This document shows, piece by piece, positions 48,995 to 62,930 of a stretch of DNA of 64,000 nt; the first letter of the stretch is position 1, and each line of letters starts with the position of its first letter. The stretch is from Bizionia sp. M204. GTDB lineage: Bacteria > Bacteroidota > Bacteroidia > Flavobacteriales > Flavobacteriaceae. The position numbers and the translations under genes are program-made. The notes beneath the pieces were generated by a model that was not told where the DNA came from, searched no databases, and saw only the letters and a program-made list of their open reading frames with translations. The DNA lies in the NCBI RefSeq assembly GCF_023205095.1, contig NZ_CP046242.1:1353001-1417000 (forward strand), in the 5' to 3' direction.

Positions 48995-49038
48995 TTGTTT
49001 AACTTTCCTGTCAATTAGTTAAACGTTTTGTATCTTTA
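48995..49038 (+). promoter_or_regulatory. Light-cluster promoter/operator, copy 1
   Basis: The inverted repeat GTTTAAC (48997-49003) and GTTAAAC (49018-49024), with a 14-bp spacer, lies directly before TTTTG and a -7-like box TATCTTTA (49031-49038). The leader to the TetR-like start is about 12 nt. The same element with identical spacing occurs at 57540-57583. No normal -33 TTTG is present, so a regulator bound at the repeat probably controls access of RNA polymerase. Confidence 0.7.
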
Positions 49039-49056
49039 CACAAGAATTTAATTATT

Positions 49057-49710
49057 ATGGCAAAAAAGAAAAACATCACCCAAGACAAGCTTATTTCATT
49101 CTATATGGATTATGTTTTAATGCATAGCCATACACCAAAAACCGTGTATGCTTTTGCAAAAGACAACAATTTTGAAGAAGCTGATTTTTATAAAAAATTT
49201 GCTTCTTTTGAAGCTTTAGAAAAATCCATATTCAAGGCATTTTTTGAAAACACCTTACAAATGCTAGAAAAAAGCGAAGCATATCAACATTTTGATGCTA
49301 GAAATAAATTATTAAGCTTTTATTTCACCTTTTTTGAAAATTTAACGGCAAACCGAAGCTATGTCGTTTTTGCACTTGAAAATAAAGGGTTAAAATCATT
49401 AAGTACGCTTTCTGAATTACGTCATGCTTTCAAAAAATATATTGACACATTAAACATTGAAACCCTTGATATTAAAGAACCGCGCATTGTTAAACTTCAA
49501 GATTATTCCAAACAAGAATCTTTTTGGATTCAACTTATGATGATTATGAAATTTTGGTTAGACGACACCTCGCCTTCCTTTGAAAAAACAGACATTTTTA
49601 TTGAAAAGTCCGTTCATGCTGGTTTTGATTTAATAGATATCAAACCACTAAAAAGCGTTTTGGATTTAGGGAAATTTCTCTTTAAAGAAAAAATGCAACA
49701 AAGCCTATGA
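49057..49710 (+). CDS. TetR-like regulator at the head of the light cluster
   Basis: The 217-residue protein has the TetR layout: a short N-terminal helix-turn-helix region (ITQDKLISFYMDYVLMHSHT, then KTVYAFAKDNNFEEADFYKK) and a helical C-terminal ligand/dimer domain to residue 217. In flavobacteria this type is usually annotated as a TetR family regulator and is typically followed by an ABC1 kinase, as here. It could bind the shared GTTTAAC-N14-GTTAAAC element in its own promoter, but a regulator encoded elsewhere is equally possible. Its stop overlaps the next start (ATGA). Confidence 0.75.
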   Translation: MAKKKNITQDKLISFYMDYVLMHSHTPKTVYAFAKDNNFEEADFYKKFASFEALEKSIFKAFFENTLQMLEKSEAYQHFDARNKLLSFYFTFFENLTANRSYVVFALENKGLKSLSTLSELRHAFKKYIDTLNIETLDIKEPRIVKLQDYSKQESFWIQLMMIMKFWLDDTSPSFEKTDIFIEKSVHAGFDLIDIKPLKSVLDLGKFLFKEKMQQSL

Positions 49711-51017
49711 AAACAATTGATAGTATTCCGACAAGCAAAATACAACGTGCTAGCAAACTGGTAAAAACAGGAGCTAAAGTGGGTGTAAATTACTTAAAAT
49801 ATTATGGTGATAAACTCACCAAAACAGAACTAGAAGCTAAAGAGAAATTAAATCAAAATAACGCAGAAGATATTTATGATGGCTTAAAACAATTAAAAGG
49901 TAGCGCACTTAAAGTTGCCCAAATGTTAAGCATGGAAAAAAGCATCTTACCGCAAGCTTATGTGGAAAAATTCTCATTAGCCCAGTTCTCTGTTCCGCCA
50001 TTATCACCACCTTTAGTGGTAAAAACATTTAAAACCTATTTTGGAAAATCACCAGAGGAAATTTTTGACACCTTCAATTCCACTTCCGTCAATGCGGCCA
50101 GTATTGGACAGGTTCATTTAGCCGAAAAAAATGGTAAAAAATTAGCTGTAAAAATTCAATATCCAGGTGTTGCCGAAAGTATCCAATCAGATTTAGCCAT
50201 GGTAAAACCCATCGCTATTAAAATGTTTAATATTAAAGGTAAAGATTCTGATAAGTACTTCAAAGAGGTAGAAAATAAACTGGTTGAAGAAACCAATTAT
50301 ATCTTAGAGCTTGAACAAAGTCAAGAAATAGCAAAGGCATGTTCTCATATTCCCAATTTAAAATTCCCCGATTATTATCCGGAATTATCTTCCGAACGGA
50401 TTATTACTATGGATTACATGATGGGTAAACATTTGTCTGAATTCACAGCAAAAAACACCAATCAGGATATGGCCAATACCATTGGACAATCGCTTTGGGA
50501 TTTCTACATGTTTCAAATTCATAAGCTCAAAAAAGTACATGCCGATCCGCACCCGGGAAATTTTCTAATTTCAGATGACGGGCACTTAATTGCTTTGGAT
50601 TTTGGATGTATGAAAACCATTCCTGAAGATTTCTATGTTCCTTATTTTGAATTAGCTGAAAAGGAAAGCATTGAAAACCCGAAAATCTTTCGAGAAAAAA
50701 TGTTCAAATTAGAAATTTTAAAACCAGACGATTCGCCTGAAGAATTAGAATTTTTCTCAACTATGTTTCATGAAATGTTAAGCATTTTCACCCAACCATT
50801 TCATGCGGAAACTTTTGATTTTTCAGATCCATCATTCTTTGGACGCATTGCAGAATTGGGTGAAAAATATTCAAAAAATACGGAATTGCGTAAAATGAAT
50901 GGAAACCGAGGTTCTAAACATTTTATTTATATAAACCGAACATTTTTTGGACTGTATAATTTAATGTTCGACTTAAAAGCCAAAGATGTAAAAATCAATA
51001 ATTTTCACAACCTATAA
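49707..51017 (+). CDS. ABC1/UbiB (AarF) family atypical kinase
   Basis: The 436-residue protein has the ABC1 kinase-like core: an N-terminal KxGQ-type segment (LKGSALKVAQMLSMEKSILP), FNSTSVNAASIGQVHLAEKN with the alanine-rich nucleotide loop, LAVKIQYPG with the conserved lysine, HADPHPGNFLI and ALDFGCMK. These ATPases act in isoprenoid lipid (ubiquinone or menaquinone) metabolism and in photosynthetic organisms in stress and pigment balance; the substrate in flavobacteria is unknown. It overlaps the TetR-like gene by 4 bp and the flavin reductase gene by 1 bp (TAATG), so the three are translationally coupled. Confidence 0.9.
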   Translation: MKTIDSIPTSKIQRASKLVKTGAKVGVNYLKYYGDKLTKTELEAKEKLNQNNAEDIYDGLKQLKGSALKVAQMLSMEKSILPQAYVEKFSLAQFSVPPLSPPLVVKTFKTYFGKSPEEIFDTFNSTSVNAASIGQVHLAEKNGKKLAVKIQYPGVAESIQSDLAMVKPIAIKMFNIKGKDSDKYFKEVENKLVEETNYILELEQSQEIAKACSHIPNLKFPDYYPELSSERIITMDYMMGKHLSEFTAKNTNQDMANTIGQSLWDFYMFQIHKLKKVHADPHPGNFLISDDGHLIALDFGCMKTIPEDFYVPYFELAEKESIENPKIFREKMFKLEILKPDDSPEELEFFSTMFHEMLSIFTQPFHAETFDFSDPSFFGRIAELGEKYSKNTELRKMNGNRGSKHFIYINRTFFGLYNLMFDLKAKDVKINNFHNL

Positions 51018-51649
51018 TGAAACATTTCAGCCATGAAGAGATCTCTAAATTAGAACATCTTTATAAAATAAACCTTATAAACAGTTGTTCTGGTTTCAAA
51101 TCGGCCAATTTAATTGGGACTAAATCTGGAGATGGCATTGAAAACGTGGCTATTTTTAGTTCAGTTACGCATGTTGGTTCAGACCCACCTTTATTAGGTG
51201 TTTTTATGAGACCAACAACGGTAACCAGAAACACCTACGATAACATAAAAGAAACGGGGTTTTACACTTTAAATCACGTGCATGAATCTATAATTTCTGA
51301 AGCGCATCATACATCAGCAAAATATGATAAACAGATTTCTGAATTTGATGTTACCTCATTAAAAGCCGAATATAAATTGGGAATAAACGTGCCTTTTGTA
51401 GCAGCGGCACCTATACAGATGCTCATGGAATTTATTGAAGAATACCATATTAAATCCAATGGAACCATATTAGTCATAGGTAAAATAAAACATTTATTTA
51501 TTCAAAATCATTTATTAGAAACAGACGGGTTCGTTAATTTATCCAAGGCACAAGTTGTCACCATCAATGGATTAGATGGTTATGCCATTGCAGAATTAAA
51601 AGAGCGACATCCCTACCAACGGCCAAAAACTAATTTAAATACCCACTAA
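51017..51649 (+). CDS. Flavin reductase-like FMN-binding protein
   Basis: The 210-residue protein has the flavin-reductase-like split-barrel pattern: FKSANLIGTKSGDGIENVAI, then FSSVTHVGSDPPLLGVFMRP, and TRNTYDNIKETGFYTLNHV. Such proteins bind FMN and either supply reduced flavin to another enzyme or act as oxidoreductases. Within this cluster a role in keeping flavin reduced for the photolyase proteins is attractive but not shown. The TAATG overlap upstream and the 2-bp gap downstream place it firmly in the operon. Confidence 0.85.
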   Translation: MKHFSHEEISKLEHLYKINLINSCSGFKSANLIGTKSGDGIENVAIFSSVTHVGSDPPLLGVFMRPTTVTRNTYDNIKETGFYTLNHVHESIISEAHHTSAKYDKQISEFDVTSLKAEYKLGINVPFVAAAPIQMLMEFIEEYHIKSNGTILVIGKIKHLFIQNHLLETDGFVNLSKAQVVTINGLDGYAIAELKERHPYQRPKTNLNTH

Positions 51650-51651
51650 AT

Positions 51652-53073
51652 ATGAAAATTCTTGTTACAGGTGCAACAGGTTATATTGGCAAACGCTTAA
51701 TACCATTACTTGTTCAAGATGGTCATCATGTTATTTGTGTGGTTCGCGATATTTTAAGAGCGGATAAGCTTTATGTGGAAGATCCTCACATAGATTTTAT
51801 AGAAGGTGATTTTCTAAAACCGGAAACCTTAACTAATCTCCCAAAAGATATTGATGTGGCTTATTATTTAATCCACTCCATGTCTAATTCCTCCAAAGAT
51901 TTTGAAGATTTAGAAGCGCGTTGTGCCGAAAATTTTAAAACGGCCATAACAAAAACCAATGTTCAACAAGTTATCTATTTAAGCGGTATTACTAACGATA
52001 AAGAGTTATCTAAACATTTGCGCTCACGCAAACAGGTTGAAGAAATTCTAAAATCAGACAATTACGCGACCACTATTTTCAAGGCTGGAATTATTGTAGG
52101 TTCTGGAAGCTCCTCTTTTGAGATTATTCGTGATTTAGTGGAAAAATTACCTTTTATGATTGCACCAAAATGGCTTAATACCAAAACGCAACCTTTGGCT
52201 GTCCGTGACGTATTAAGTTATTTATCAAAAAGTGCTGGAGACGAACGGCTTTATAATCAGGCTTATGATATTTTCGGTCCTGAAGTACTCACATACAAAC
52301 AAATGTTATTGGAATTTGCCGAAGTCCGTAAACTCAAACGGTACATTTTAACGGTTCCTGTTATGACACCCAAATTATCATCATACTGGTTGTATTTCGT
52401 GACGTCCACATCCTACAAATTAGCTTCGTCTTTAGTAGATAGTATGGGTGTTCAAATAATTGGTAAGCCAAGCAATATAGAGGAACTTTTAGGCATAAAA
52501 CCATTGTCATATAAAGAAGCTGTTTCTTTAGCTTTTGAAAAAATAGAACAAAATAGTATTATTTCTAGTTGGAAAGATTCCATGGTGAGTAGCGGCCGAC
52601 TCAAAAATAATTTCCATAAATATGTGAATGTACCAAAATATGGTTGTTTTAAAGATTATAAGGAACGTCCTGTTACAGATCCAGAAGAAACCATTCGGAA
52701 AATTTGGGCTATTGGCGGCAATACCGGTTGGTATTATGGAACCCGTTTATGGCGATTGCGTGGTTATATGGACAAAATGGTGGGCGGCATTGGTTTACGA
52801 CGCGGACGTACAAGTCCAACGGAATTGCATGTAGGGGATTCACTTGATTTTTGGCGTGTCATTTTTGCGGATAAAGACAAACAAAAGCTGCTACTCTACG
52901 CCGAAATGAAATTACCTGGCGAAGCTTGGTTAGAATTTAAAATTGAAGATAATAAGCTGAAACAAACCGCTACGTTTAGACCACGCGGTTTGGCAGGACG
53001 ACTCTATTGGTATAGCGTTTTACCATTTCATGGTTTTATTTTTAGAGGTATGATTAACAAACTTGCCAGCTAA
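51652..53073 (+). CDS. NAD(P)-binding Rossmann protein with DUF2867 domain
   Basis: Residues 1-290 form an extended-SDR/NmrA-like Rossmann domain with the glycine motif TGATGYIGKRLI (6-17), DFIEGDFLKPETL and AYYLIHSMSN. Residues 310-473 form a DUF2867 domain (GWYYGTRLWRLRGYMDKMVG, then GGIGLRRGRTSPTELHVGDS and RGLAGRLYWYSVLPFH). This fusion is frequent in Bacteroidota and proteobacteria next to photolyase and carotenoid genes. Its substrate is unknown; a lipid or isoprenoid role is possible. It is directly followed by the DUF2256 gene, whose TTG start touches its stop codon. Confidence 0.85.
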   Translation: MKILVTGATGYIGKRLIPLLVQDGHHVICVVRDILRADKLYVEDPHIDFIEGDFLKPETLTNLPKDIDVAYYLIHSMSNSSKDFEDLEARCAENFKTAITKTNVQQVIYLSGITNDKELSKHLRSRKQVEEILKSDNYATTIFKAGIIVGSGSSSFEIIRDLVEKLPFMIAPKWLNTKTQPLAVRDVLSYLSKSAGDERLYNQAYDIFGPEVLTYKQMLLEFAEVRKLKRYILTVPVMTPKLSSYWLYFVTSTSYKLASSLVDSMGVQIIGKPSNIEELLGIKPLSYKEAVSLAFEKIEQNSIISSWKDSMVSSGRLKNNFHKYVNVPKYGCFKDYKERPVTDPEETIRKIWAIGGNTGWYYGTRLWRLRGYMDKMVGGIGLRRGRTSPTELHVGDSLDFWRVIFADKDKQKLLLYAEMKLPGEAWLEFKIEDNKLKQTATFRPRGLAGRLYWYSVLPFHGFIFRGMINKLAS

Positions 53074-53214
53074 TTGAAAAAATCAGATTTACCTAAAAAA
53101 ATATGTCCTGTTTGTCAATTACCATTTTCTTGGCGTAAAAAATGGCGAAATAATTGGGAGCACGTAATTTATTGTAGCGAACGATGCAAACGAAACAAAA
53201 CACATATACATTAG
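53074..53214 (+). CDS. DUF2256 small zinc-ribbon protein
   Basis: A 46-residue frame starts with TTG 53074 immediately after the previous stop and ends with TAG 53212-53214. The core [14 protein letters not shown], then [11 protein letters not shown] is the DUF2256 signature. Cysteines 11, 14, 34 and 38 should bind one zinc. DUF2256 genes are regularly found next to photolyase or cryptochrome genes, though the protein's function is unknown. It overlaps the start of the DASH gene by 31 bp in another frame, so coupled translation is likely. No ATG is available; TTG is the only sensible start. Confidence 0.88.
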
Positions 53215-54494
53215 TTTGGTTTACCACCAATTTACGGATTCAAGATAATACGGTTTTGGCCCATGCCTTAAAATTAAACCATCCTATAATTGGTATCTAT
53301 TGTTTTGATCCGCGACATTACAAAACGACCACATACGGTTTTAAAAAAACAGAAAAATATCGTGCCCGTTTTACGATTGAAAGTGTTCAGGATTTAAAAA
53401 ACCAGTTGGAGTCACTCAATATTCCGTTATTTACATTCTACGAGAAACCAGAAATAGCCATTCCAAAACTTTGTGAAACTTACAGTATATCAGATATCTG
53501 TTTGCAAAAAGAATTTACAAGTGAAGAAACTCAAACTATTCAAAACCTTAAAGTTAAAGTTTCTAAGCTCACAAGCTTTCATGAATGGTATGATCAGTTT
53601 TTATTTCATCCTGATGATGTTTTTATTCATTTAAATGAAATTCCAAAGGTATTTACAAATTTCAGAAAAGTATTAGAAAAAAACTGTTCTGTAAACAACA
53701 AGCTTAAAGCAACAAAACAAGTTGCTTTTCAAATCGAAAATAACACAACAATTCCAAATTTAAAAATTCTAGGTTTTTCGGAATTTACAACCCATACGCA
53801 TACGGCTTTTCCATTTTCGGGTGGTGAAACGGCTGCTCAAAACCGATTAAACACTTATGTGTTTGAAACCAAAAAAATAGGATTTTATAAGAAAACTAGA
53901 AACGGTTTATTAGGTACAGATTACAGCTCTAAATTTTCGGCGTGGTTGGCCAACGGCTGTATTAGTGCTAGGCAAATATATTGGGCCATTAAAGAGTTTG
54001 AGCGCACAGAATTCAAAAACGAATCGACTTATTGGCTTATTTTCGAATTAATCTGGCGCGATTTCTTCAAGTTTATTGCCTTGCAACATGGGAATGCTAT
54101 TTTTAAAATTGATGGTATTAATCAACAATCCTATAATTGGAAAACAAATCCAACTTTAATTAAAAAGTGGTGTTCTGGAGCAACACCTGAACGGTTTGTA
54201 AATGCTAATATGATGGAGCTCAATAAAACCGGCTGGATGAGTAATCGTGGGCGACAAAATGTGGCATCTTACTTTGCCAAAACATTAGAACTCGATTGGC
54301 GCGTTGGTGCGGCATATTTTGAATCCCTACTTATAGATTATGATGTGCATAGCAATTATGGTAACTGGTTGTACGTGGCAGGTGTTGGAAACGACCCTAG
54401 AAATAGGACTTTTAATGTGAAGCTCCAGGCCGACCGTTATGATGAACATGGTAAATTTCAGAAGCAATGGCTTCAAAATACGTTATTTGAATGA
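53184..54494 (+). CDS. Cryptochrome DASH family protein
   Basis: The 436-residue protein has an N-terminal photolyase antenna domain ([20 protein letters not shown]) and a C-terminal FAD domain. It has [20 protein letters not shown], then [40 protein letters not shown], and the DASH signature [18 protein letters not shown] proteins bind FAD and usually MTHF and repair CPDs in single-stranded DNA or act in light sensing. It ends 4 bp inside the next gene (ATGA-type overlap). One of four members of the superfamily in this cluster. Confidence 0.92.
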
Positions 54495-56023
54495 AAACAC
54501 TCCGACTCCTTTTAGGCGACCAGTTAAATATTAAGCATCCTTGGTTTAAATCCGTTGATGATGATATCGTTTACGCTATTTTTGAAATGCGCCAAGAAAC
54601 CGATTATGTCACCCATCATATTCAAAAAGTAATTGGGTTTTTCGCAGCCATGCGCGAATTTGCTTCCACGTTAGAATCTGCTGGACACCAGTTTATTTAT
54701 TATAAAATTACGGATAAAAATAATACGCAAAAACTGCCTGAAAATCTTCAAAAAATTATCCGTGAAAAAGACATTTCTTGCTTTGAATATCAACTGCCGG
54801 ATGAATATAGATTGGATAGGCAATTGCAAAAATTCGCTAAAACCCTTTCCATAGAATGTAATGTTGTTGATACGTCACATTTTTACACCAAACGTGAAGA
54901 TTTACAAACGTTCTATAAAGGCAAAAAGCAATTTGTCATGGAAAATTTTTATCGTGACATGCGTAAAAAGCATGACATTTTAATGGCTTATGGTAATCCG
55001 GAAGGTGGTAAATGGAATTACGATAAATCCAATCGGAAGAAATGGAAAAACGAACCTGAAATTCCAACGTACAAATATTTTAAGAATGAGGTATCTGCAG
55101 TCGTTTCCGATATAGAAAAATCCGGTATTAAAACCATGGGGAATTGGAACCTAAAAACCTTCAATTATCCTATAAACAGGAAGCAAGCTTTGGAGCAGCT
55201 TAAATATTTCTGTGAACAGTTATTAATTCATTTTGGCGATTATCAAGATGCTTTGCATACCGATGAAGTTTATTTATTTCATTCACGCTTATCATTTGCC
55301 ATGAATATCAAATTGATTTCCGCCCGAAATGTGGTTGATACAATTTTAAATTATTACCGAAAGCATGAAGATTCTATAGATATTTCGCAAGTAGAAGGAT
55401 TTATCCGTCAAGTTATTGGTTGGCGTGAGTATATGCGTGGCATGTATTGGGCATTAATGCCAGACTTCAAAGAGCAGAATTATTTAAACAATAGGAATAG
55501 TTTAGCCGATTTCTTTTGGACAGGAAACACCAAAATGGCTTGCTTAAAACATAGTATTTCCAATTCCTTGGATAACGCGTATGCGCATCACATTCAACGT
55601 TTGATGATTACGGGAAATTACGCACTCCTAACCCAAACCCATCCAGATGCTGTAGATGCATGGTATTTAGGAATTTATGCAGATGCTGTAGAATGGGTTC
55701 AATTACCCAACACGCGTGGCATGAGTCAATTTGCCGATGGTGGAAATATTGCTACCAAACCCTATGTGTCTTCGGGTTCCTATATTCAGAAAATGAGTAA
55801 TTATTGTGACGGTTGTCATTATAACTATAAGAAAAAAACAGAAGCCGATGCCTGCCCATTCAATAGCCTATATTGGAACTTTTTGGATGATAAGCGTGAA
55901 CAATTAGAATCCAATTTTAGAATGAAAATGATGTATTCCATCCTTAATAAAATGGATGCCGATAAGCTTTCAGCATTGAAAGAACGCGCGACACACATTA
56001 TACAAAATCAAGATGCATACTAA
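54491..56023 (+). CDS. Iron-sulfur photolyase/cryptochrome (FeS-BCP, PhrB type)
   Basis: The 510-residue protein starts [18 protein letters not shown], the typical beginning of the FeS-BCP group. Four cysteines at 351, 439, 442 and 455 match, with a shift of one, the 4Fe-4S ligands reported for Agrobacterium PhrB (350, 438, 441, 454); the context YCDGCHY and DACPFNSLYWNF is the same. PhrB-type enzymes repair (6-4) photoproducts and bind FAD and a lumazine antenna. The length is also nearly equal. It overlaps both neighbours (4 bp before, 11 bp after), so it belongs to the same translation unit. Confidence 0.95.
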   Translation: MKTLRLLLGDQLNIKHPWFKSVDDDIVYAIFEMRQETDYVTHHIQKVIGFFAAMREFASTLESAGHQFIYYKITDKNNTQKLPENLQKIIREKDISCFEYQLPDEYRLDRQLQKFAKTLSIECNVVDTSHFYTKREDLQTFYKGKKQFVMENFYRDMRKKHDILMAYGNPEGGKWNYDKSNRKKWKNEPEIPTYKYFKNEVSAVVSDIEKSGIKTMGNWNLKTFNYPINRKQALEQLKYFCEQLLIHFGDYQDALHTDEVYLFHSRLSFAMNIKLISARNVVDTILNYYRKHEDSIDISQVEGFIRQVIGWREYMRGMYWALMPDFKEQNYLNNRNSLADFFWTGNTKMACLKHSISNSLDNAYAHHIQRLMITGNYALLTQTHPDAVDAWYLGIYADAVEWVQLPNTRGMSQFADGGNIATKPYVSSGSYIQKMSNYCDGCHYNYKKKTEADACPFNSLYWNFLDDKREQLESNFRMKMMYSILNKMDADKLSALKERATHIIQNQDAY

Positions 56024-57509
56024 CCGAGAACCGATACATATTGTTTGGTTTAAACGCGATTTGCGTTTAGAAGATCATGAGCCGTTGAAAAAGGCTCTTG
56101 AACAGAATGAGCGTGTGCTTTGCTTGTTTGTTTTTGAACAATTACTTCTTGATGATCCGCATTATAGCGAACGGCATTGGGATTTTATAAAAGAATCTAT
56201 TCGCGATATGAATGCCTTTTTAAATCCCTATAATACGAAAGTACTGGCTATAAATTCTGATATCATTTCGGCCTGTAACATAATTTCTAATTCGTATCAA
56301 ATTAAAAACGTTTATTCACATCAAGAAACGGGAATTCAAGTAACTTTTGATCGGGACAAAGCGTTTAAACGCTACTGCAAAAATAATGTAATTTCATGGC
56401 AAGAAAGCATTCAAAATGGTGTGGTTCGTGGTTTAAAAACTCGTGAATTATGGTTTGAAAACTGGAATAAAATTATGGCTGAACCGCTTATTACCTTTAC
56501 AGCTCAAACTTCTAATTTTTTGCCTTTGGATGCTATTTACGAATTAGAAATGCAATGTCAATCAGCAAATCTAGAAACGGCAACAGATAAGCCTTTTCAA
56601 AAAGGCGGAACGAAAACAGGAAATAAATACCTACTATCCTTTTTAAACAATAGGCATAAGGATTATATGTTTCATATTTCTAAACCTGAAAAATCTCGAA
56701 AAAGTTGCAGTCGTTTGTCACCTTATATTGCTTGGGGCAATTTATCTGTTAGGCAAGTGTATCAAGCGTCTAAAACCGCTCAAGTATCGTCTAGCTATAA
56801 GAAGCAATTATCTGCTTTCCGTTCCCGATTACGTTGGCAAGCGCATTTTATTCAAAAGTTTGAGATGGAACATATTATGGAAAAGGTGAGCGTTAATAAG
56901 GGTTACCATAAACTTAAAAAATCTATTTCAGAACACTACCAAATGGCTTGGAAAACGGGACAAACCGGGTTTCCTTTGGTAGATGCTAGCATGCGCTGCT
57001 TAAACCAAACCGGCTATATTAATTTTAGAATGCGCGCCTTATTAGTATCGTTTTTTACGCATATTTTATGGCAACCATGGCAAGATGCCTCCAAACATTT
57101 ATCGCGGCAATTTTTAGATTTCGAACCTGGAATTCATTATCCACAATTGCAAATGCAAGCAGGTGAAACAGGTATAAATAATTTACGAATTTATAATCCC
57201 ATAAAAAACAGTTTAGAACATGATCCTGATGGGATATTTATTAAACATTGGGTTCCTGAACTACGTGATTTAGATTTACCATTCGTGCATGAACCCTATT
57301 TAATGACTACCTTAGACCAACAATTCAATAATTTCCAATTAGGTATAGACTACCCCTTCCCTATTGTCGATTTAAAATCGAAAAGAAAACGTGCTAGTGA
57401 AACACTCTGGAATATGAAGAAAAACCCCAAAGTTAAAAATGAAAGCATACGCATTCTTAAAAAACACACCATTGATAATCGCTCTAATTTATTGAAGAAC
57501 GACGATTAA
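56013..57509 (+). CDS. Third, divergent photolyase/cryptochrome family protein
   Basis: The 498-residue protein has the antenna domain start HIVWFKRDLRLEDHEPLKKA and a FAD-domain series (YIAWGNLSVRQVYQ, then QTGFPLVDASMRCLNQTGYI and FRMRALLVSFFTHILWQPWQ). Where class I enzymes have SN.GNWQW..G..D, this protein reads HYPQLQMQAGETGINNLRIY and continues NPIKNSLEHDPDGIFI. The asparagine-tryptophan segment near flavin N5 is therefore replaced. From memory this is a recognised bacterial subfamily of unclear substrate. It overlaps the FeS gene by 11 bp. It could be a repair enzyme with altered chemistry or a light sensor. Confidence 0.85.
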   Translation: MHTNREPIHIVWFKRDLRLEDHEPLKKALEQNERVLCLFVFEQLLLDDPHYSERHWDFIKESIRDMNAFLNPYNTKVLAINSDIISACNIISNSYQIKNVYSHQETGIQVTFDRDKAFKRYCKNNVISWQESIQNGVVRGLKTRELWFENWNKIMAEPLITFTAQTSNFLPLDAIYELEMQCQSANLETATDKPFQKGGTKTGNKYLLSFLNNRHKDYMFHISKPEKSRKSCSRLSPYIAWGNLSVRQVYQASKTAQVSSSYKKQLSAFRSRLRWQAHFIQKFEMEHIMEKVSVNKGYHKLKKSISEHYQMAWKTGQTGFPLVDASMRCLNQTGYINFRMRALLVSFFTHILWQPWQDASKHLSRQFLDFEPGIHYPQLQMQAGETGINNLRIYNPIKNSLEHDPDGIFIKHWVPELRDLDLPFVHEPYLMTTLDQQFNNFQLGIDYPFPIVDLKSKRKRASETLWNMKKNPKVKNESIRILKKHTIDNRSNLLKNDD

Positions 57510-57539
57510 TATATTAATTTCCAAAACAATTGTTAATTT

Positions 57540-57583
57540 TTGTTTAACTTCTATTAATAACCGTTAAACATTTTGTAACTTTG
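57540..57583 (+). promoter_or_regulatory. Light-cluster promoter/operator, copy 2
   Basis: GTTTAAC (57542-57548) and GTTAAAC (57563-57569) have the same 14-bp spacer as copy 1 and are followed by the same TTTTGTA step into a -7 box TAACTTTG (57576-57583). By hand, 31 of 44 positions agree with copy 1 even though most of the spacer differs. It divides the cluster into two transcripts that would answer to one regulator. Confidence 0.7.
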
Positions 57584-57601
57584 ATATTAAATAAACCTAA
57601 T

Positions 57602-58030
57602 TTGATATTAAACAGTACATATCACGACAAAGAGCACAAAGAAGTTATTTCGGACTTAATAGGTAAGCCTTATTCTTTTTTTGAAGCACTCAAGTTGAAA
57701 GGAATTGGCTCTAAACGCATGATTATAAATGAGGTTAGTCCGAATTTACAAGCCTATTTAAACCGCGTTTCAGATATTAATTACGCCAATATTGAAATGC
57801 GTTCTGGCGGAATCATTATATATATTAATAAAGGCCTAAAGAATTTTTCTTGGATTATTCCTTATTATCAATTGGTTTTATATAAAACTAATGGCGCTAG
57901 CATTCATGCTCAAGGTAAGTTTATCAACTTTGAAAATAATAACATGTTTAAAGAGAATAAAGCTTTTTTTAAACGCTTATTAGATGCAAAAGTGATTTAT
58001 GATCAACGTTTTAACTTTATGGACTCATGA
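57602..58030 (+). CDS. Unknown protein at the head of the second light-cluster transcript
   Basis: There is no ATG at the beginning. An upstream in-frame TTG (57581) lies inside the -7 box, so it cannot be in the mRNA made from that promoter. The TTG at 57602 is therefore the better choice and gives 142 residues, with a leader of roughly 12 nt. The two starts lie in a direct repeat of TTTGATATTAAA. The protein is soluble, of mixed helix and strand (KPYSFFEALKLKGIGSKRMI, then IEMRSGGIIIYINKGLKNFS), with no family I recognise. Its stop overlaps the TIGR03643 start (ATGA-type). Confidence 0.65.
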   Translation: MILNSTYHDKEHKEVISDLIGKPYSFFEALKLKGIGSKRMIINEVSPNLQAYLNRVSDINYANIEMRSGGIIIYINKGLKNFSWIIPYYQLVLYKTNGASIHAQGKFINFENNNMFKENKAFFKRLLDAKVIYDQRFNFMDS

Positions 58031-58302
58031 ATGGTTTTAAAACGCGCGAGATAGATAGAATTATTGAAATGGCTTGGGAAGACCGCACCACATTTGAGGC
58101 TATTAAATTTCAATTTGGTTTGGAAGAACAAGATGTTATAAGCTTGATGCGGCGCGAAATGAAACCTAGCAGTTTCAGAATGTGGCGCAAACGGGTTCAA
58201 GGTAGGAAAACCAAACATGAAAAATTACGCGCTTTTGAAAAAGGACGTTTTAAATGTAGTAGACAAAAACAAATTACACATAATAAAATAAGTAAACGCT
58301 AA
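58027..58302 (+). CDS. TIGR03643 family protein
   Basis: The 91-residue protein contains the family core REIDRIIEMAWEDRTTFEAI, then FQFGLEEQDVISLMRREM, then SSFRMWRKRVQGRKTKHEKL. It looks like a small helix-turn-helix fold followed by a basic tail (KGRFKCSRQKQ), so nucleic acid binding is possible. The family is repeatedly found with photolyase genes but has no known function. It is the second gene of the 57540 promoter unit. Confidence 0.88.
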   Translation: MNGFKTREIDRIIEMAWEDRTTFEAIKFQFGLEEQDVISLMRREMKPSSFRMWRKRVQGRKTKHEKLRAFEKGRFKCSRQKQITHNKISKR

Positions 58303-58351: not shown

Positions 58352-59050
58352 ATGAAAATAGAATCTACATTATCTAAAAATCAACAGAAAAACAGTTTAA
58401 ATGGTTTTTCTACGGACATGATTGGGGACGACCATTTATCAACAGGATTAGAAACACCCATGAAATCTGACGCGTTCAAACTTTCAGATTCCGAAAAAAA
58501 GCAACGTATTTCTGTGTTATTTGAAGAAATAATGGATGTTATGGGGTTAGATTTAACGGACGACTCGTTAAAAGGAACACCCGATCGTGTTGCTAAAATG
58601 TATATAGATGAAATATTTTCTGGTTTAAACCCTAAAAACAAGCCTAAAGTTGCCTTATTTGAAAATAAGTACCGTTATAACCAAATGGTTCTCGAAAAAA
58701 ATATTACCTTTTACTCCAATTGCGAACATCATTTTGTACCCATCATTGGTAAAGCACATCTGGCCTATATTTCTTCTGGAAAAGTAATAGGATTATCCAA
58801 GTTAAACAGAATTGTGCACTATTTCGCAAAAAGACCACAGGTGCAGGAACGTTTAACGAATCAAATTGCCAACGAACTCAAAACTATTTTAGATACAGAA
58901 GACATAGCCGTTATTATTGATGCCAAACATTTGTGTGTATCTTCACGAGGCGTTAAGGACGATACTTCTGCAACTGTAACGGCTTATTACGGTGGCGCAT
59001 TTAATTCACCAGAAAAAATAATCGAATTACAAAACTATTTAAATCATTAA
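58352..59050 (+). CDS. folE: GTP cyclohydrolase I (FolE)
   Basis: The 232-residue enzyme has zinc ligands Cys124, His127 and Cys195 (NCEHHFVP and HLCVSSRG), with the same 71-residue spacing as in E. coli. GTPDRVAKMY, then GLSKLNRIVHYFAKRPQVQE is also typical. It converts GTP to 7,8-dihydroneopterin triphosphate, the first step to folate and other pterins. The first 45 residues are a variable extension. In a photolyase cluster its likely use is to raise pterin or MTHF supply for antenna cofactors; a housekeeping copy may exist elsewhere. Confidence 0.95.
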   Translation: MKIESTLSKNQQKNSLNGFSTDMIGDDHLSTGLETPMKSDAFKLSDSEKKQRISVLFEEIMDVMGLDLTDDSLKGTPDRVAKMYIDEIFSGLNPKNKPKVALFENKYRYNQMVLEKNITFYSNCEHHFVPIIGKAHLAYISSGKVIGLSKLNRIVHYFAKRPQVQERLTNQIANELKTILDTEDIAVIIDAKHLCVSSRGVKDDTSATVTAYYGGAFNSPEKIIELQNYLNH

Positions 59051-59053
59051 ATT

Positions 59054-59278
59054 ATGGATACCATAGAACGTGCTCTAGAATTTGAGCAAACCAAACTAAA
59101 GTCATTATCCACTAGCGATAGAATAAAAATATCTAGAGAAGCTAAAGAACTAATCTTGGAATTAAACAAAATTTACAAGAAAAAGAAAGACGAAAGCATC
59201 ATGGATATTATGAAGCGTTTAACAGCCATTAAACAAAAAGTTGAAAAACGATTAAAAGGGAGACCCTTAACGGCTTAG
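59054..59278 (+). CDS. Small helical protein of unknown function
   Basis: The 74-residue protein is highly charged and predicted to be all helix (RALEFEQTKLKSLSTSDRIK, then AKELILELNKIYKKKKDESI). It lies 3 bp after folE and 12 bp before the SDR gene. Codon use and spacing suggest it is real. No motif is recognised; a coiled-coil helper or nucleic acid contact is possible because of its basic end (KKVEKRLKGRP-like). Confidence 0.6.
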   Translation: MDTIERALEFEQTKLKSLSTSDRIKISREAKELILELNKIYKKKKDESIMDIMKRLTAIKQKVEKRLKGRPLTA

Positions 59279-59290
59279 ATTAATTATAGA

Positions 59291-59974
59291 ATGAAAACTT
59301 ATATTATTGTTGGGGGCAGCAAAGGCATTGGCCGCGCAATTTCCATGAAATTATTAGAAAATCATAAGGTCATTAATTTAAGCAGGTCTAAACCTGATTT
59401 TAATCATGATAATTTAAAACATTATGCGGTTGATATTTTGAGTGATGACCTACCTTATTTAGATCAAGCTGATGGCTTAATATATTGTCCTGGCAGTATT
59501 AATTTAAAGCCCATTGGCCGTTTAAGTTTAGATGATTTTCGTTCGGATTTTGAAATTAATGTGATAGGTGCTGTTCAAGCAATTCAAAAATATCTTCCTA
59601 TAATAAAAAAAGGAGATAAACCGTCCATGTTATTTTTTAGTACAGTAGCTGCAAAATTAGGGATGCCGTTTCATGCTAGCGTGGCGGCTTCAAAAGCAGC
59701 TGTGGAAGGTTTGGTAAAATCTATTGGCGCTGAATTGGCACCAACAGTTCGTGTAAATGCCATTGCGCCCACAGTTACGAATACCGAATTAGCGTCTAAA
59801 TTACTGCGAAACGAGAAAATGATTAACAACATCACAGAGCGGCATCCCCTTAAAAAATTCTTAAACCCAACAGAAGTTGCCGAAATGGCTTCATTCCTCC
59901 TATCGGATCATGCAGCCGCTATTTCTGGTCAAATTTTCGAGATGGATTGCGGCATTGTATCCTTCAAAATATAA
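59291..59974 (+). CDS. Short-chain dehydrogenase-like protein lacking the catalytic tyrosine
   Basis: The 227-residue protein has the SDR cofactor motif GGSKGIGRAI (8-17), and the active-site region FFSTVAAKLGMPFHAS then VAASKAAVEGL. The catalytic lysine is Lys135 and serine is Ser117, but position 131, where the YxxxK tyrosine should be, is Val. Similar SDRs next to photolyase genes share the ASVAASK form, so it may be a subfamily with altered chemistry or a non-catalytic NAD(P)-binding protein. The C-terminal part (NAIAPTVTNTELASKLLRNE, GQIFEMDCG) is otherwise normal. Confidence 0.85.
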   Translation: MKTYIIVGGSKGIGRAISMKLLENHKVINLSRSKPDFNHDNLKHYAVDILSDDLPYLDQADGLIYCPGSINLKPIGRLSLDDFRSDFEINVIGAVQAIQKYLPIIKKGDKPSMLFFSTVAAKLGMPFHASVAASKAAVEGLVKSIGAELAPTVRVNAIAPTVTNTELASKLLRNEKMINNITERHPLKKFLNPTEVAEMASFLLSDHAAAISGQIFEMDCGIVSFKI

Positions 59975-59977
59975 CTC

Positions 59978-60523
59978 ATGAAATACGTATTTACACTTAT
60001 AATTATGTTTAGTTTATTTAATAAAAGTCAAGCACAAACCGAACCAACACAATCCATATATGATATTGCCATTAACGGTTTGGATGGTAAACCGTTAAAA
60101 TTATCAGATTTTAAAGGAAAACATATATTGTTTGTCAATGTGGCGTCCAAATGTGGTTTTACGGGTCAATATGAAGATTTGCAAAAACTTTACGATACGT
60201 ACAAGGATAACCTGATGGTTATAGGCGTTCCATGTAATCAATTTGGTGGTCAAGAACCTGGAACTGCCTCCGATATCCAAACGTTCTGCCAAGCCAATTA
60301 TGAGGTAACATTCCAAATGACGGAAAAAGTAGACGTTAAAGGTGATAATCAACATGCCCTTTATAAGTGGTTAACCAATCAGGAGTTAAACGGTAAGTCT
60401 AGTTCCAATGTTAAGTGGAATTTCCAAAAGTATTTAGTGGATGGAAACGGCCAATTAGTTGATTATTATTTTTCTGTAACCAATCCTATGAGTGGAAAAA
60501 TTACTAAAAATTTAACGCTGTAA
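59978..60523 (+). CDS. Secreted glutathione peroxidase-like protein
   Basis: The 181-residue protein has a signal peptide (MKYVFTLIIMFSLFNKSQAQ) and the GPx core: FVNVASKCGFTGQYEDLQKL with peroxidatic Cys59, then VIGVPCNQFGGQEPG, and SSNVKWNFQKYLVD with the Trp-Asn pair of the active site. It is a cysteine rather than selenocysteine form and probably uses thioredoxin-like reductants in the periplasm to remove peroxides. Its place between an SDR and a Lacal_2735-like gene in a light cluster fits defence against photo-oxidative damage. Confidence 0.92.
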   Translation: MKYVFTLIIMFSLFNKSQAQTEPTQSIYDIAINGLDGKPLKLSDFKGKHILFVNVASKCGFTGQYEDLQKLYDTYKDNLMVIGVPCNQFGGQEPGTASDIQTFCQANYEVTFQMTEKVDVKGDNQHALYKWLTNQELNGKSSSNVKWNFQKYLVDGNGQLVDYYFSVTNPMSGKITKNLTL

Positions 60524-60697: not shown

Positions 60698-61162
60698 ATG
60701 AAATTTGTCCCACTTTTAATTCTGTTTCTAATTATAAATTTTGGCAGTTTAGCAATTGGTAGCTGGTTAATGGGTGATGGCGCTACGTCACCTTGGTACA
60801 CCAATTTAAATAAAGCACCTTGGACACCTCCAGGCTGGGTTTTTGGTGCGGCATGGACATTTATCATGATTTGCTTTTCGGTGTATTTAACCTATCTGTT
60901 TAAAGATTACCAATCGCCATTAATAATAGGCGTATTTGCTCTTCAGGTGGTTTTAAATATTGCTTGGAATTTTTTATTTTTTAATCAGCACCTCGTACTA
61001 TTCGCTTTAATCACGATTGTTTTATTAACGCTCGTAATCTTTTATTTCTTTTTCACCTTTCGTATGGATGCCATGAATTCTTGGCGCTATTTATTAGTCC
61101 CTTATATGATATGGCTTTGCATTGCAACCTCTTTAAATCTTTACGTTTTACTCAATAACTAA
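60698..61162 (+). CDS. TspO/MBR family tryptophan-rich membrane protein
   Basis: The 154-residue protein has five membrane helices and the family pattern WYTNLNKAPWTPPGWVFGAA, then WTFIMICFSVYL, with many tryptophans. TspO proteins bind porphyrins and are linked to light and oxidative stress in bacteria such as Rhodobacter. In this cluster it fits a response to photosensitising tetrapyrroles. Its stop overlaps the start of the SRPBCC gene (TAATG). Confidence 0.93.
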   Translation: MKFVPLLILFLIINFGSLAIGSWLMGDGATSPWYTNLNKAPWTPPGWVFGAAWTFIMICFSVYLTYLFKDYQSPLIIGVFALQVVLNIAWNFLFFNQHLVLFALITIVLLTLVIFYFFFTFRMDAMNSWRYLLVPYMIWLCIATSLNLYVLLNN

Positions 61163-61623
61163 TGAAAATTTACACCTTACACGCGAAGCAAAATCTACCA
61201 ATTTCTGTAGATCAGGCATGGGAATTTTTATCGGACCCAAAAAATCTTAAAACTATTACACCAGATTACATGGGCTTTCATATTCTTTCAGGAGCGGACA
61301 GACCTATGTTTGCAGGTCAATTAATTCAATATATTGTAACACCTGTTTTGGGTATTAAAACGAAGTGGGTAACAGAAATTACACACGTTATTGACAAGGC
61401 ATATTTTGTGGATGAGCAACGCTTTGGTCCGTATGCGCTTTGGCATCATAAACATTTTATTAAAGCCATTGATGGTGGTGTAGAAATGGAAGATATTATA
61501 GATTACAAAGTTCCTATGGGTATACTAGGTCAACTGATACACCCATTAATTGTGAAGCCAAAATTAGATGAAATTTTTGCCTATCGTCAGAAAAAATTAG
61601 TAGAATTATTTGGAACTCTATAA
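61162..61623 (+). CDS. SRPBCC (START-like) family protein
   Basis: The 153-residue protein begins YTLHAKQNLPISVDQAWEFL, then FLSDPKNLKTITPDYMGFHI, the opening strand and helix of the SRPBCC/polyketide cyclase fold. It continues with WVTEITHVIDKAYFVDEQRF and ends with the long helix that closes the hydrophobic pocket. It should bind a hydrophobic ligand; genes of this type often accompany photolyase and carotenoid genes, but the ligand is unknown. It lies between tspO and the CPD photolyase with a 2-bp gap. Confidence 0.85.
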   Translation: MKIYTLHAKQNLPISVDQAWEFLSDPKNLKTITPDYMGFHILSGADRPMFAGQLIQYIVTPVLGIKTKWVTEITHVIDKAYFVDEQRFGPYALWHHKHFIKAIDGGVEMEDIIDYKVPMGILGQLIHPLIVKPKLDEIFAYRQKKLVELFGTL

Positions 61624-61625
61624 GT

Positions 61626-62930
61626 ATGAAACAACCCTTAAACATTTTTTGGTTCCGACGCGATTTACGTTTAGATGATAATCGTGGGTTTTATGAAGCT
61701 CTTAAAAGTGATCATCATGTGCTACCTATTTTTATTTTCGATTCGGAACTATTAGAATCCCTGCCTAAAGGTGATGCACGCGTAACGTTTATTTACCATA
61801 CGCTGCAAACCATGCGTAAAACACTTCAAAACGAACACAACAGCAGTATTGCTATATATCACGGAACACCTGAAAGCGTTTTTAAACATCTTGTCGATTC
61901 GTACGAAATTACTACCGTTTTTACCAATCACGATTACGAACCTTATGCCATTAAGCGGGATAACGATGTGGGTTCATTTTTAGAAGAAAATGGAATTGCA
62001 TTTAAAACTTATAAGGACCAAGTTATTTTTGAAAAAAATGAAGTCGTTAAAGATGATGGCGATCCCTATCGCGTGTATACACCTTTTATGAAAACATGGA
62101 AGGCCGCTTTTAAAACAATAGATTTAGAAATTTATTACACCAACAGCTATTTGGATAATTTGGTTAAAAACACCCGATTACCAAATTTGGAATTATCGGA
62201 TTTAGGTTTTAAAAAATCTAAACAAGACATAGCACCATATGACGTAACACCCACTTTAATTCAGGAATACGAAGCCAAGCGTAATTTTCCAGCAAAAGAT
62301 GCCACATCTCGTTTAGGACCACACTTACGATTTGGAACGGTGAGTATTAGGAAAATGGTAAAAAAAGCCATTGCAGAAAAAAATGAGATATTTTGGCAAG
62401 AGCTTATTTGGCGTGAATTCTTCATGCAAATACTTTGGCATTTTCCGCACACGGTAACCGAAAGTTTCAAGCCCAAATACGACAATATACAATGGCGTAA
62501 TAACGAAACGGAATTCCAAGCTTGGTGCCAAGGTAAAACAGGATATCCTTTAGTGGATGCTGGTATGCGGGAATTAAATGAAACCGGATTTATGCATAAT
62601 CGGGTGCGTATGTTGGTTGGTAGTTTTTTATGTAAACATTTGCTGATTGATTGGCGTTGGGGAGAAGCCTATTTTGCAGAAAAATTACATGATTATGAAA
62701 TGGCTAGTAACATTGGAAATTGGCAGTGGGTTGCGGGTTCTGGTGTGGATGCAGCACCTTATTTTAGAATTTTTAATCCAACCACCCAAATTGAAAAATT
62801 TGATAAAGATTTAAAATATATTAATAAATGGGTACCCGAATTTCAAGAACTCACCTACCCTTCAAAAATAGTGGATCATAAAGAGGCACGAGAGCGTTGT
62901 TTAAAAGTTTACAAGGAAGCTGTCAGTTAA
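61626..62930 (+). CDS. phr: Class I CPD photolyase
   Basis: The 434-residue enzyme has the antenna domain start NIFWFRRDLRLDDNRGFYEA and the complete FAD domain signature: TGYPLVDAGMRELNETGFMH, then NRVRMLVGSFLCKHLLIDWR, WGEAYFAEKLHDYEMASNIG and NWQWVAGSGVDAAPYFRIFN. This includes the NWQW segment near flavin that the protein at 56013 lacks. It repairs cyclobutane pyrimidine dimers in DNA with blue or near-UV light, with MTHF or a similar antenna. It is the last gene of the light cluster. Confidence 0.95.
   Translation: MKQPLNIFWFRRDLRLDDNRGFYEALKSDHHVLPIFIFDSELLESLPKGDARVTFIYHTLQTMRKTLQNEHNSSIAIYHGTPESVFKHLVDSYEITTVFTNHDYEPYAIKRDNDVGSFLEENGIAFKTYKDQVIFEKNEVVKDDGDPYRVYTPFMKTWKAAFKTIDLEIYYTNSYLDNLVKNTRLPNLELSDLGFKKSKQDIAPYDVTPTLIQEYEAKRNFPAKDATSRLGPHLRFGTVSIRKMVKKAIAEKNEIFWQELIWREFFMQILWHFPHTVTESFKPKYDNIQWRNNETEFQAWCQGKTGYPLVDAGMRELNETGFMHNRVRMLVGSFLCKHLLIDWRWGEAYFAEKLHDYEMASNIGNWQWVAGSGVDAAPYFRIFNPTTQIEKFDKDLKYINKWVPEFQELTYPSKIVDHKEARERCLKVYKEAVS

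Follow-up and report, generated by a model that had tools for sequence, protein, structure and literature searches.

What kind of regulator is served by two similar promoter elements that stand in front of two clusters of photolyase genes? The question is raised by a stretch of 64,000 nucleotides from Bizionia sp. M204, a member of the Flavobacteriaceae (contig NZ_CP046242.1, positions 1,353,001 to 1,417,000, written C1:1353001-1417000 in genome coordinates), which is called the window hereafter and to which coordinates without a prefix refer. The element is a 28-bp inverted repeat, GTTTAAC-N14-GTTAAAC, found in exact form at 48997-49024 (copy 1) and at 57542-57569 (copy 2), each upstream of a photolyase operon. 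The answer given here is that this repeat is very probably the operator of a photoreceptor of the CarH/LitR type that uses coenzyme B12, a repressor that would be bound to the DNA in the dark and released from it by light. The original prediction, drawn from the window itself, had placed two 44-bp elements at 48995-49038 and 57540-57583; both are there, with exact half-sites and 14-bp spacers, and its figure of 31 agreeing positions out of 44 was reproduced by an independent count. The 13 differences comprise 10 in the spacer, one right after the right half-site and two in a box that resembles a -7 promoter element. The parts, read from the sequence and, for the box of operon 1, also from its likeness in sequence and distance to boxes of relatives, are as follows.

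48997 to 49003, plus strand: left half-site GTTTAAC, copy 1
49018 to 49024, plus strand: right half-site GTTAAAC, copy 1
49031 to 49038, plus strand: -7-like box TATCTTTA, operon 1
57542 to 57548, plus strand: left half-site GTTTAAC, copy 2
57563 to 57569, plus strand: right half-site GTTAAAC, copy 2, with the conserved A next to it
57576 to 57583, plus strand: -7-like box TAACTTTG, operon 2

Behind each copy follow N-TTTTG and then the -7-like box at a fixed distance, the box beginning after 6 bp from the end of the site. In Bacteroidota the promoter consensus is TAnnTTTG with a TTG at -33. The base after the right half-site of copy 1 is G, while it is A in 35 of 36 aligned gene-linked sites. 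Near the second promoter there is also a 12-bp direct repeat, TTTGATATTAAA, at 57580-57591 and 57601-57612, whose copies share bases with the end of the -7 box and with the inferred TTG start of operon 2.

How rare is such a pattern? Within the window there are two exact sites, none with one or two mismatches and two with three, so that four are found at up to three mismatches against 9.0 expected, which is no enrichment. Over the whole genome (3,362,199 bases) the count at up to two mismatches is 32, made up of three exact sites and 29 that carry two mismatches, sites with a single mismatch being absent; the control, which is the pattern read backwards, reaches 70 under the same limit, none of them exact. 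The excess is thus confined to exact copies and does not extend to imperfect ones. By a second-order Markov model with the window as its training sequence, 0.08 exact sites would be expected in a genome. All three exact sites directly precede genes of the photolyase clusters or of carotenoid synthesis; the 29 places with two mismatches all fall outside the window and away from carH, the regulator gene described next. The genome scan that had been proposed as a check of the original prediction therefore finds exact sites in excess of 0.08 and not scattered at random places.

Where, then, is the third copy? It occupies C1:457490-457517 and is flanked by a gene for a 298-aa MerR protein of the CarH/LitR type (MerR-B12) on one side and a crtI-like gene on the other. 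The CarH-type gene (C1:457532-458428, minus strand) is 0.94 Mb away from the window. Genes resembling crtB, crtZ and crtY come after the crtI-like gene; these crt names derive only from reading the translations, and in Pfam the crtI-like protein is matched as a flavin-containing amine oxidoreductase. The CarH of this genome has an N-terminal MerR_1 domain (Pfam, E 3e-15) and a four-helix B12-binding_2 domain (E 8.2e-12) with the motif W-x9-EH, and Pfam gave no separate hit to a C-terminal Rossmann-type B12-binding domain at E values up to 0.001. The C-terminal B12 domain is seen in that the structural model of a relative, from locus L109, covers CarH over about 300 alignment columns and in that H192, the cobalt-ligating histidine, is invariant in 15 of 15 aligned CarH proteins, as are W142 and E152-H153. 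The two best matches of the protein in the PDB are 3whp (E 5.6e-13) and the Thermus CarH 5c8d (E 6.7e-13). The L109 model, made by AlphaFold2 from 14 sequences (mean predicted local distance difference test 87.8, predicted template modelling score 0.68), finds CarH chains as its best matches in Foldseek (5c8e, E 1.6e-14), with template modelling scores of about 0.5-0.6 for full-length chains and about 0.7-0.8, normalised to the target, for B12 domains alone; the placement of the domains therefore differs. A light signature of the LitR/CarH family has been published as GxxW, EH, GxxH and GxxxP (PMC11796333). The CarH of Bizionia has GLLW, EH and GPSVP, and its GxxH reads NEIH, the histidine being kept and the glycine replaced by asparagine; relatives L089 and L126 have GELH at this position. 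A gene for cobalamin adenosyltransferase is found in the genome, which is an indirect hint on adenosylcobalamin. By its domains the 298-aa protein belongs to the LitR/CarH family, and from its sequence it is predicted to bind adenosylcobalamin and to leave the DNA in the light.

Does the site go together with CarH in other genomes? Among 60 genomes taken to be Flavobacteriaceae, the exact site is present in 21 of the 46 with a CarH match and in none of the 14 without (Fisher p 0.001), four of these 14 being less than 90% complete. A sample of the phylum comprised 118 genomes with a completeness of 90% or more; in it the extended site TGTTTAAC-N14-GTTAAACA, which copy 1 of the window does not match, occurs in 7 of 24 genomes with CarH and in 0 of 94 without (p 7e-6), and its reversed control in one genome of the 118. 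That a regulator might be encoded outside the window had been one of the suggestions of the original prediction, and the CarH-type gene beside the third copy, together with this co-occurrence, speaks for it.

The same arrangement is kept in relatives. At promoters of the tetR-like gene that opens operon 1, a site with up to two mismatches is found in 29 of 38 cases (16 of 20 loci and 13 of 18 others), whereas the reversed control gives 0 of 38. The 120 bp that follow carH hold one in 18 of 30 cases, compared with 0 of 30 for the control. Related promoters thus keep the site in front of orthologous clusters, where its absence had been named as an outcome that would speak against a regulator site. 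It lies near 8 of 17 further carH genes (control 0), namely 6 of 8 whose products are 47-52% identical to the CarH of Bizionia and only 2 of 9 divergent ones (33-40%), so that the site fades as CarH diverges. Of 28 readable cases (L157-L186), 17 have a half-site GTTTAA(C/T) at a distance of exactly 22 bp in front of carH, possibly for autoregulation by half an operator. When spacings from 6 to 25 were tried, inverted half-sites at N14 were found in 16 of 20 tetR-like, 18 of 30 after-carH and 11 of 22 rhodopsin promoters, and at most in 3 at any other inverted spacing. Everted half-sites at N14 score 8, 9 and 0 and direct ones 7, 9 and 0 in the same order (other spacings at most 4), a consequence of the single base in which left and right half-sites differ; N14 is the only enriched spacing. 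In L175 both half-sites are changed symmetrically, to GTCTAAC...GTTAGAC, with a close form in L202, as expected for two equal half-sites. In a wider test, the symmetric variant TGTCTAA-N16-TTAGACA was present in 2 of the 7 genomes that have a divergent CarH, before carH (L276, genome G032) and before the tetR-like gene (L278, genome G038), but also in 2 of 53 others (G006, G021), with one match of the reversed control (G032); coevolution of regulator and operator is only suggested by these counts.

Which genes stand behind the site? A scan of contigs for exact sites gave at least 119 stretches with at least 121 sites, at least 89 of them in Bacteroidota and at least 32 elsewhere. Among the listed sites, 36 of 121, all classed as Bacteroidota, are followed within 250 bp by the start of a gene that belongs to the window clusters or to the crt/carH set: tetR-like in 10, crtI in 10, SRPBCC in 5, orf142 in 3, carH in 3, photolyase in 2, and folE, a short-chain dehydrogenase (SDR) and an SDR-DUF2867 gene in one each. 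Half-sites and spacing are kept across genera and spacer sequences differ, and this constant geometry in front of many different genes upholds the earlier view of a regulator site and not copied DNA. From the other 53 listed Bacteroidota sites, 20 neighbouring genes were picked by hand for Pfam: four encode extracytoplasmic function (ECF) sigma factors, four bacterial rhodopsins and one a 6-pyruvoyl tetrahydropterin synthase, while 11 have no evident link to light (three fasciclin, three DUF4397, two Porph_ging, and one each of DUF2452, PRAI and HupE). The sites next to fasciclin genes (L083, L094, L080) and next to DUF4397 genes with a sorting tail (L023, L048, L054) are possibly further targets or chance, and among those beside Porph_ging genes, too, some may be chance. 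At least three exact sites fall inside long reading frames (L021, L024, L059), probably by chance. On a contig filed under a Kuenenia metagenome-assembled genome (L095), the site accompanies a folE 79% identical to that of the window; this is probably a mis-binned contig of Bacteroidota.

Rhodopsin genes deserve a paragraph of their own. A Bac_rhodopsin gene is present in 24 of 120 Flavobacteriaceae genomes, and none was matched in the Bizionia genome. Twenty-two promoters were readable (sampled from L208-L230) after L229, with too short an upstream region, and L231, with an internal stop and no helix motif, had been dropped. Eleven of them carry a site if two mismatches are allowed, and none of the 22 matches the reversed control. 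In nine the distance to the chosen start codon is 37-54 bp, in the other two 76 and 97 bp; exact sites stand right before rhodopsin genes at L033:5422, L055:5149, L132:3336 and L122:963 (minus strand). CarH was found in 19 of the 24 rhodopsin genomes, and the site is at 10 of 17 promoters with CarH versus 1 of 5 without, a difference too small for proof. Photolyase genes have been linked to rhodopsin-bearing Flavobacteriia (PMC5932025), in the accessible passages of which neither promoter nor MerR has a match.

The genes behind the two copies of the window, all on the plus strand, are the following; operon 2 is taken from gene order and strand to extend to the last of them.

49057 to 49710: TetR-like protein, first gene of operon 1 (Pfam TetR_C_23 only)
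49707 to 51017: ABC1/UbiB-like kinase
51017 to 51649: flavin reductase-like protein
51652 to 53073: NAD(P)-binding protein with DUF2867
53184 to 54494: DASH-type cryptochrome (NCBIfam TIGR02765, above its cut-off)
54491 to 56023: photolyase-related protein (DPRP)
56013 to 57509: cryptochrome/photolyase family protein
57602 to 58030: 142-aa protein (orf142) that matches no family; it opens operon 2 (TTG start deduced from relatives)
58027 to 58302: DUF2805 / TIGR03643 protein
58352 to 59050: GTP cyclohydrolase I (folE)
59054 to 59278: 74-aa protein without known family
59291 to 59974: short-chain dehydrogenase
59978 to 60523: glutathione peroxidase family protein
60698 to 61162: TspO/MBR family protein
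61162 to 61623: SRPBCC/polyketide-cyclase-like protein (Pfam match below its cut-off)
61626 to 62930: DNA photolyase

How might these genes be controlled? From the sites, their rarity, conservation, spacing and gene context and their co-occurrence with CarH, we infer binding of CarH, repression and a response to light. In the dark, B12-bound CarH would sit on both half-sites and block RNA polymerase, at the photolyase operons from a site directly upstream of the -7 box and over the -33 region, and at crtI from a site that straddles the -7-like box. Indeed, a TAnATTTG-like box lies inside the spacer at crtI, with the right half-site behind it. Positions upstream of the box and across it both fit a repressor that blocks polymerase, while an activator could hardly work from both. 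As is understood of CarH light chemistry, light would break the bond between B12 and carbon and CarH would let go of the DNA, so that the genes for photolyases, pterins and carotenoids, joined in relatives by those for rhodopsins, could be transcribed together. The outer flank is conserved in 35 of the 36 aligned sites on each side; each half-site therefore reads GTTAAACA, which contains the TnnACA of known CarH operators. The original prediction had proposed one light- or damage-responsive regulator for both transcripts. A shared, light-linked regulator gains support from the CarH gene at the third copy and from the co-occurrence, the response to light itself being predicted, and a response to damage, while possible, is not needed.

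Several observations weigh against CarH as the regulator. Twelve of the 30 stretches after carH lack a site at up to two mismatches, as do most of the divergent carH genes and 7 of 17 rhodopsin promoters in genomes with CarH, while G079 (81% complete) has a rhodopsin site and no CarH found. Of the 46 CarH-positive genomes of the family, 25 are without the exact site. TnnACA amounts to only four fixed bases; the 11-bp direct repeat of the studied CarH operators did not appear in column counts of the 36 aligned sites; and the light signature departs from the published one at NEIH. The reversed control also has 11 exact places in 9 of the 60 genomes, compared with 32 in 21 for the site, so that some single sites must be chance, and the co-occurrence tests take no account of relatedness, AT content and incompleteness of genomes.

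Could the protein encoded right behind copy 1 be the regulator instead? TetR-family proteins bind inverted repeats, and the TetR-like gene is the first of operon 1 with the site kept at its promoter as counted above; moreover, exact sites are commoner in genomes with this gene (18 of 38 versus 3 of 22, p 0.01). That this protein is an autoregulator binding both window copies is nevertheless quite improbable. The protein matches only TetR_C_23 at E values up to 0.001, with no helix-turn-helix domain; 3 of the 21 site-bearing genomes have no match to the gene (G019, G043 and G048, the last 82% complete); and G059, alone in having the gene and no CarH, is without the site in front of it. Within CarH-positive genomes the association is not significant (18 of 37 versus 3 of 9, p 0.48), and the third copy in the Bizionia genome adjoins carH. 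The original prediction had offered this gene as a candidate regulator, against which the sites without the gene, the gene without a site and the missing helix-turn-helix match speak; it is likely a target.

Somewhat less improbable, though still unlikely, is that an unlinked regulator responsive to light or stress uses the site, with CarH as a neighbour or fellow target. In some other Bacteroidota a gene for an ECF sigma factor follows the site: all four reading frames tested there (168-178 aa; L020:1856-2365, L089:5718-6221, L126:3894-4400 and L110:1288-1821, the last two on the minus strand) encode one, so that more than one regulator takes part in the response. In L020 and L089 this site is between carH and crtI; L126 has carH, and L110 has neither carH nor crtI in view. 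Light may therefore act through a sigma factor in some other Bacteroidota. A symmetric 28-bp site with strict 14-bp spacing, however, fits a dimeric or tetrameric binder and not a sigma factor, its varying position relative to the -7 box fits repression, and the site tracks CarH across genomes. An origin by chance or recent duplication would suit an AT-rich region, simple half-sites and the lack of excess among matches with two or three mismatches; against this stand three exact sites for 0.08 expected, all before light-cluster or carotenoid genes, reversed controls of zero at the tested promoters and unrelated spacers. Its probability is negligible, and conservation at orthologous promoters refutes it.

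With CarH as the preferred repressor, how far does its reach extend? We lean slightly towards the view that one B12-based green-light repressor, with a new 28-bp inverted operator, runs a sunlight programme across Bacteroidota that turns on photolyases, pterin cofactor genes, carotenoids and proteorhodopsin jointly, and that it would be the direct rhodopsin regulator in many flavobacteria. The light response of flavobacteria would then have a named regulator, operator and list of targets. With an operator in view before rhodopsin genes, their regulation can be tested directly: induction by light would be expected where the site is present and not where it is missing. CarH would also gain a second operator geometry, which would help to explain how this optogenetic protein reads DNA. 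Among the papers listed in searches of a partly covered literature, no title or beginning of an abstract describes the site or a CarH regulon in Bacteroidota; the regulator family is known, and within the searchable part of the literature both the geometry of the operator and its link to rhodopsins seem new.

How does this system compare with known ones? For rhodopsins, expression is reported to be raised by light in Dokdonia MED134, also a flavobacterium and in this respect alike, and to be constitutive in Dokdonia donghaensis PRO95; the regulator named in Vibrio campbellii is RpoS1, unlike the CarH proposed here, and those of other hosts were not known in 2012 (PMC3380642). Among the closest known systems are CarHTt of Thermus thermophilus and CarHBm with their operators, which share with this one the MerR and B12 domains, the Trp/Glu-His/His at the B12 site, the neighbourhood of carotenoid genes and a TnnACA readable in each half-site (PMC9304148). 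Their operators line up three or four 11-bp direct repeats, nnnnTnnACAn, in tandem (PMC9304148), while here a single inverted pair of 7-bp half-sites stands 14 bp apart, and the predicted targets reach photolyases and rhodopsins. A classical CarH operator is rejected, as enrichment is found only at N14, is best for the inverted order and comes without the 11-bp repeat; the site is a variant and not a member of that class. In its targets and symmetry the system resembles class II LitR (PplR, PmlR2): Pseudomonas LitR controls phrB, cryB and folE, these LitR/CarH-family repressors govern such light-induced and related genes, and their operator is likewise made of two spaced symmetric half-sites (PMC9758184). 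That operator differs, however, in reading T(G/A)TACA-N12-TGTA(C/T)A, and class II LitR proteins keep only the four-helix B12 domain, PmlR2 working with a LOV protein (PMC9758184).

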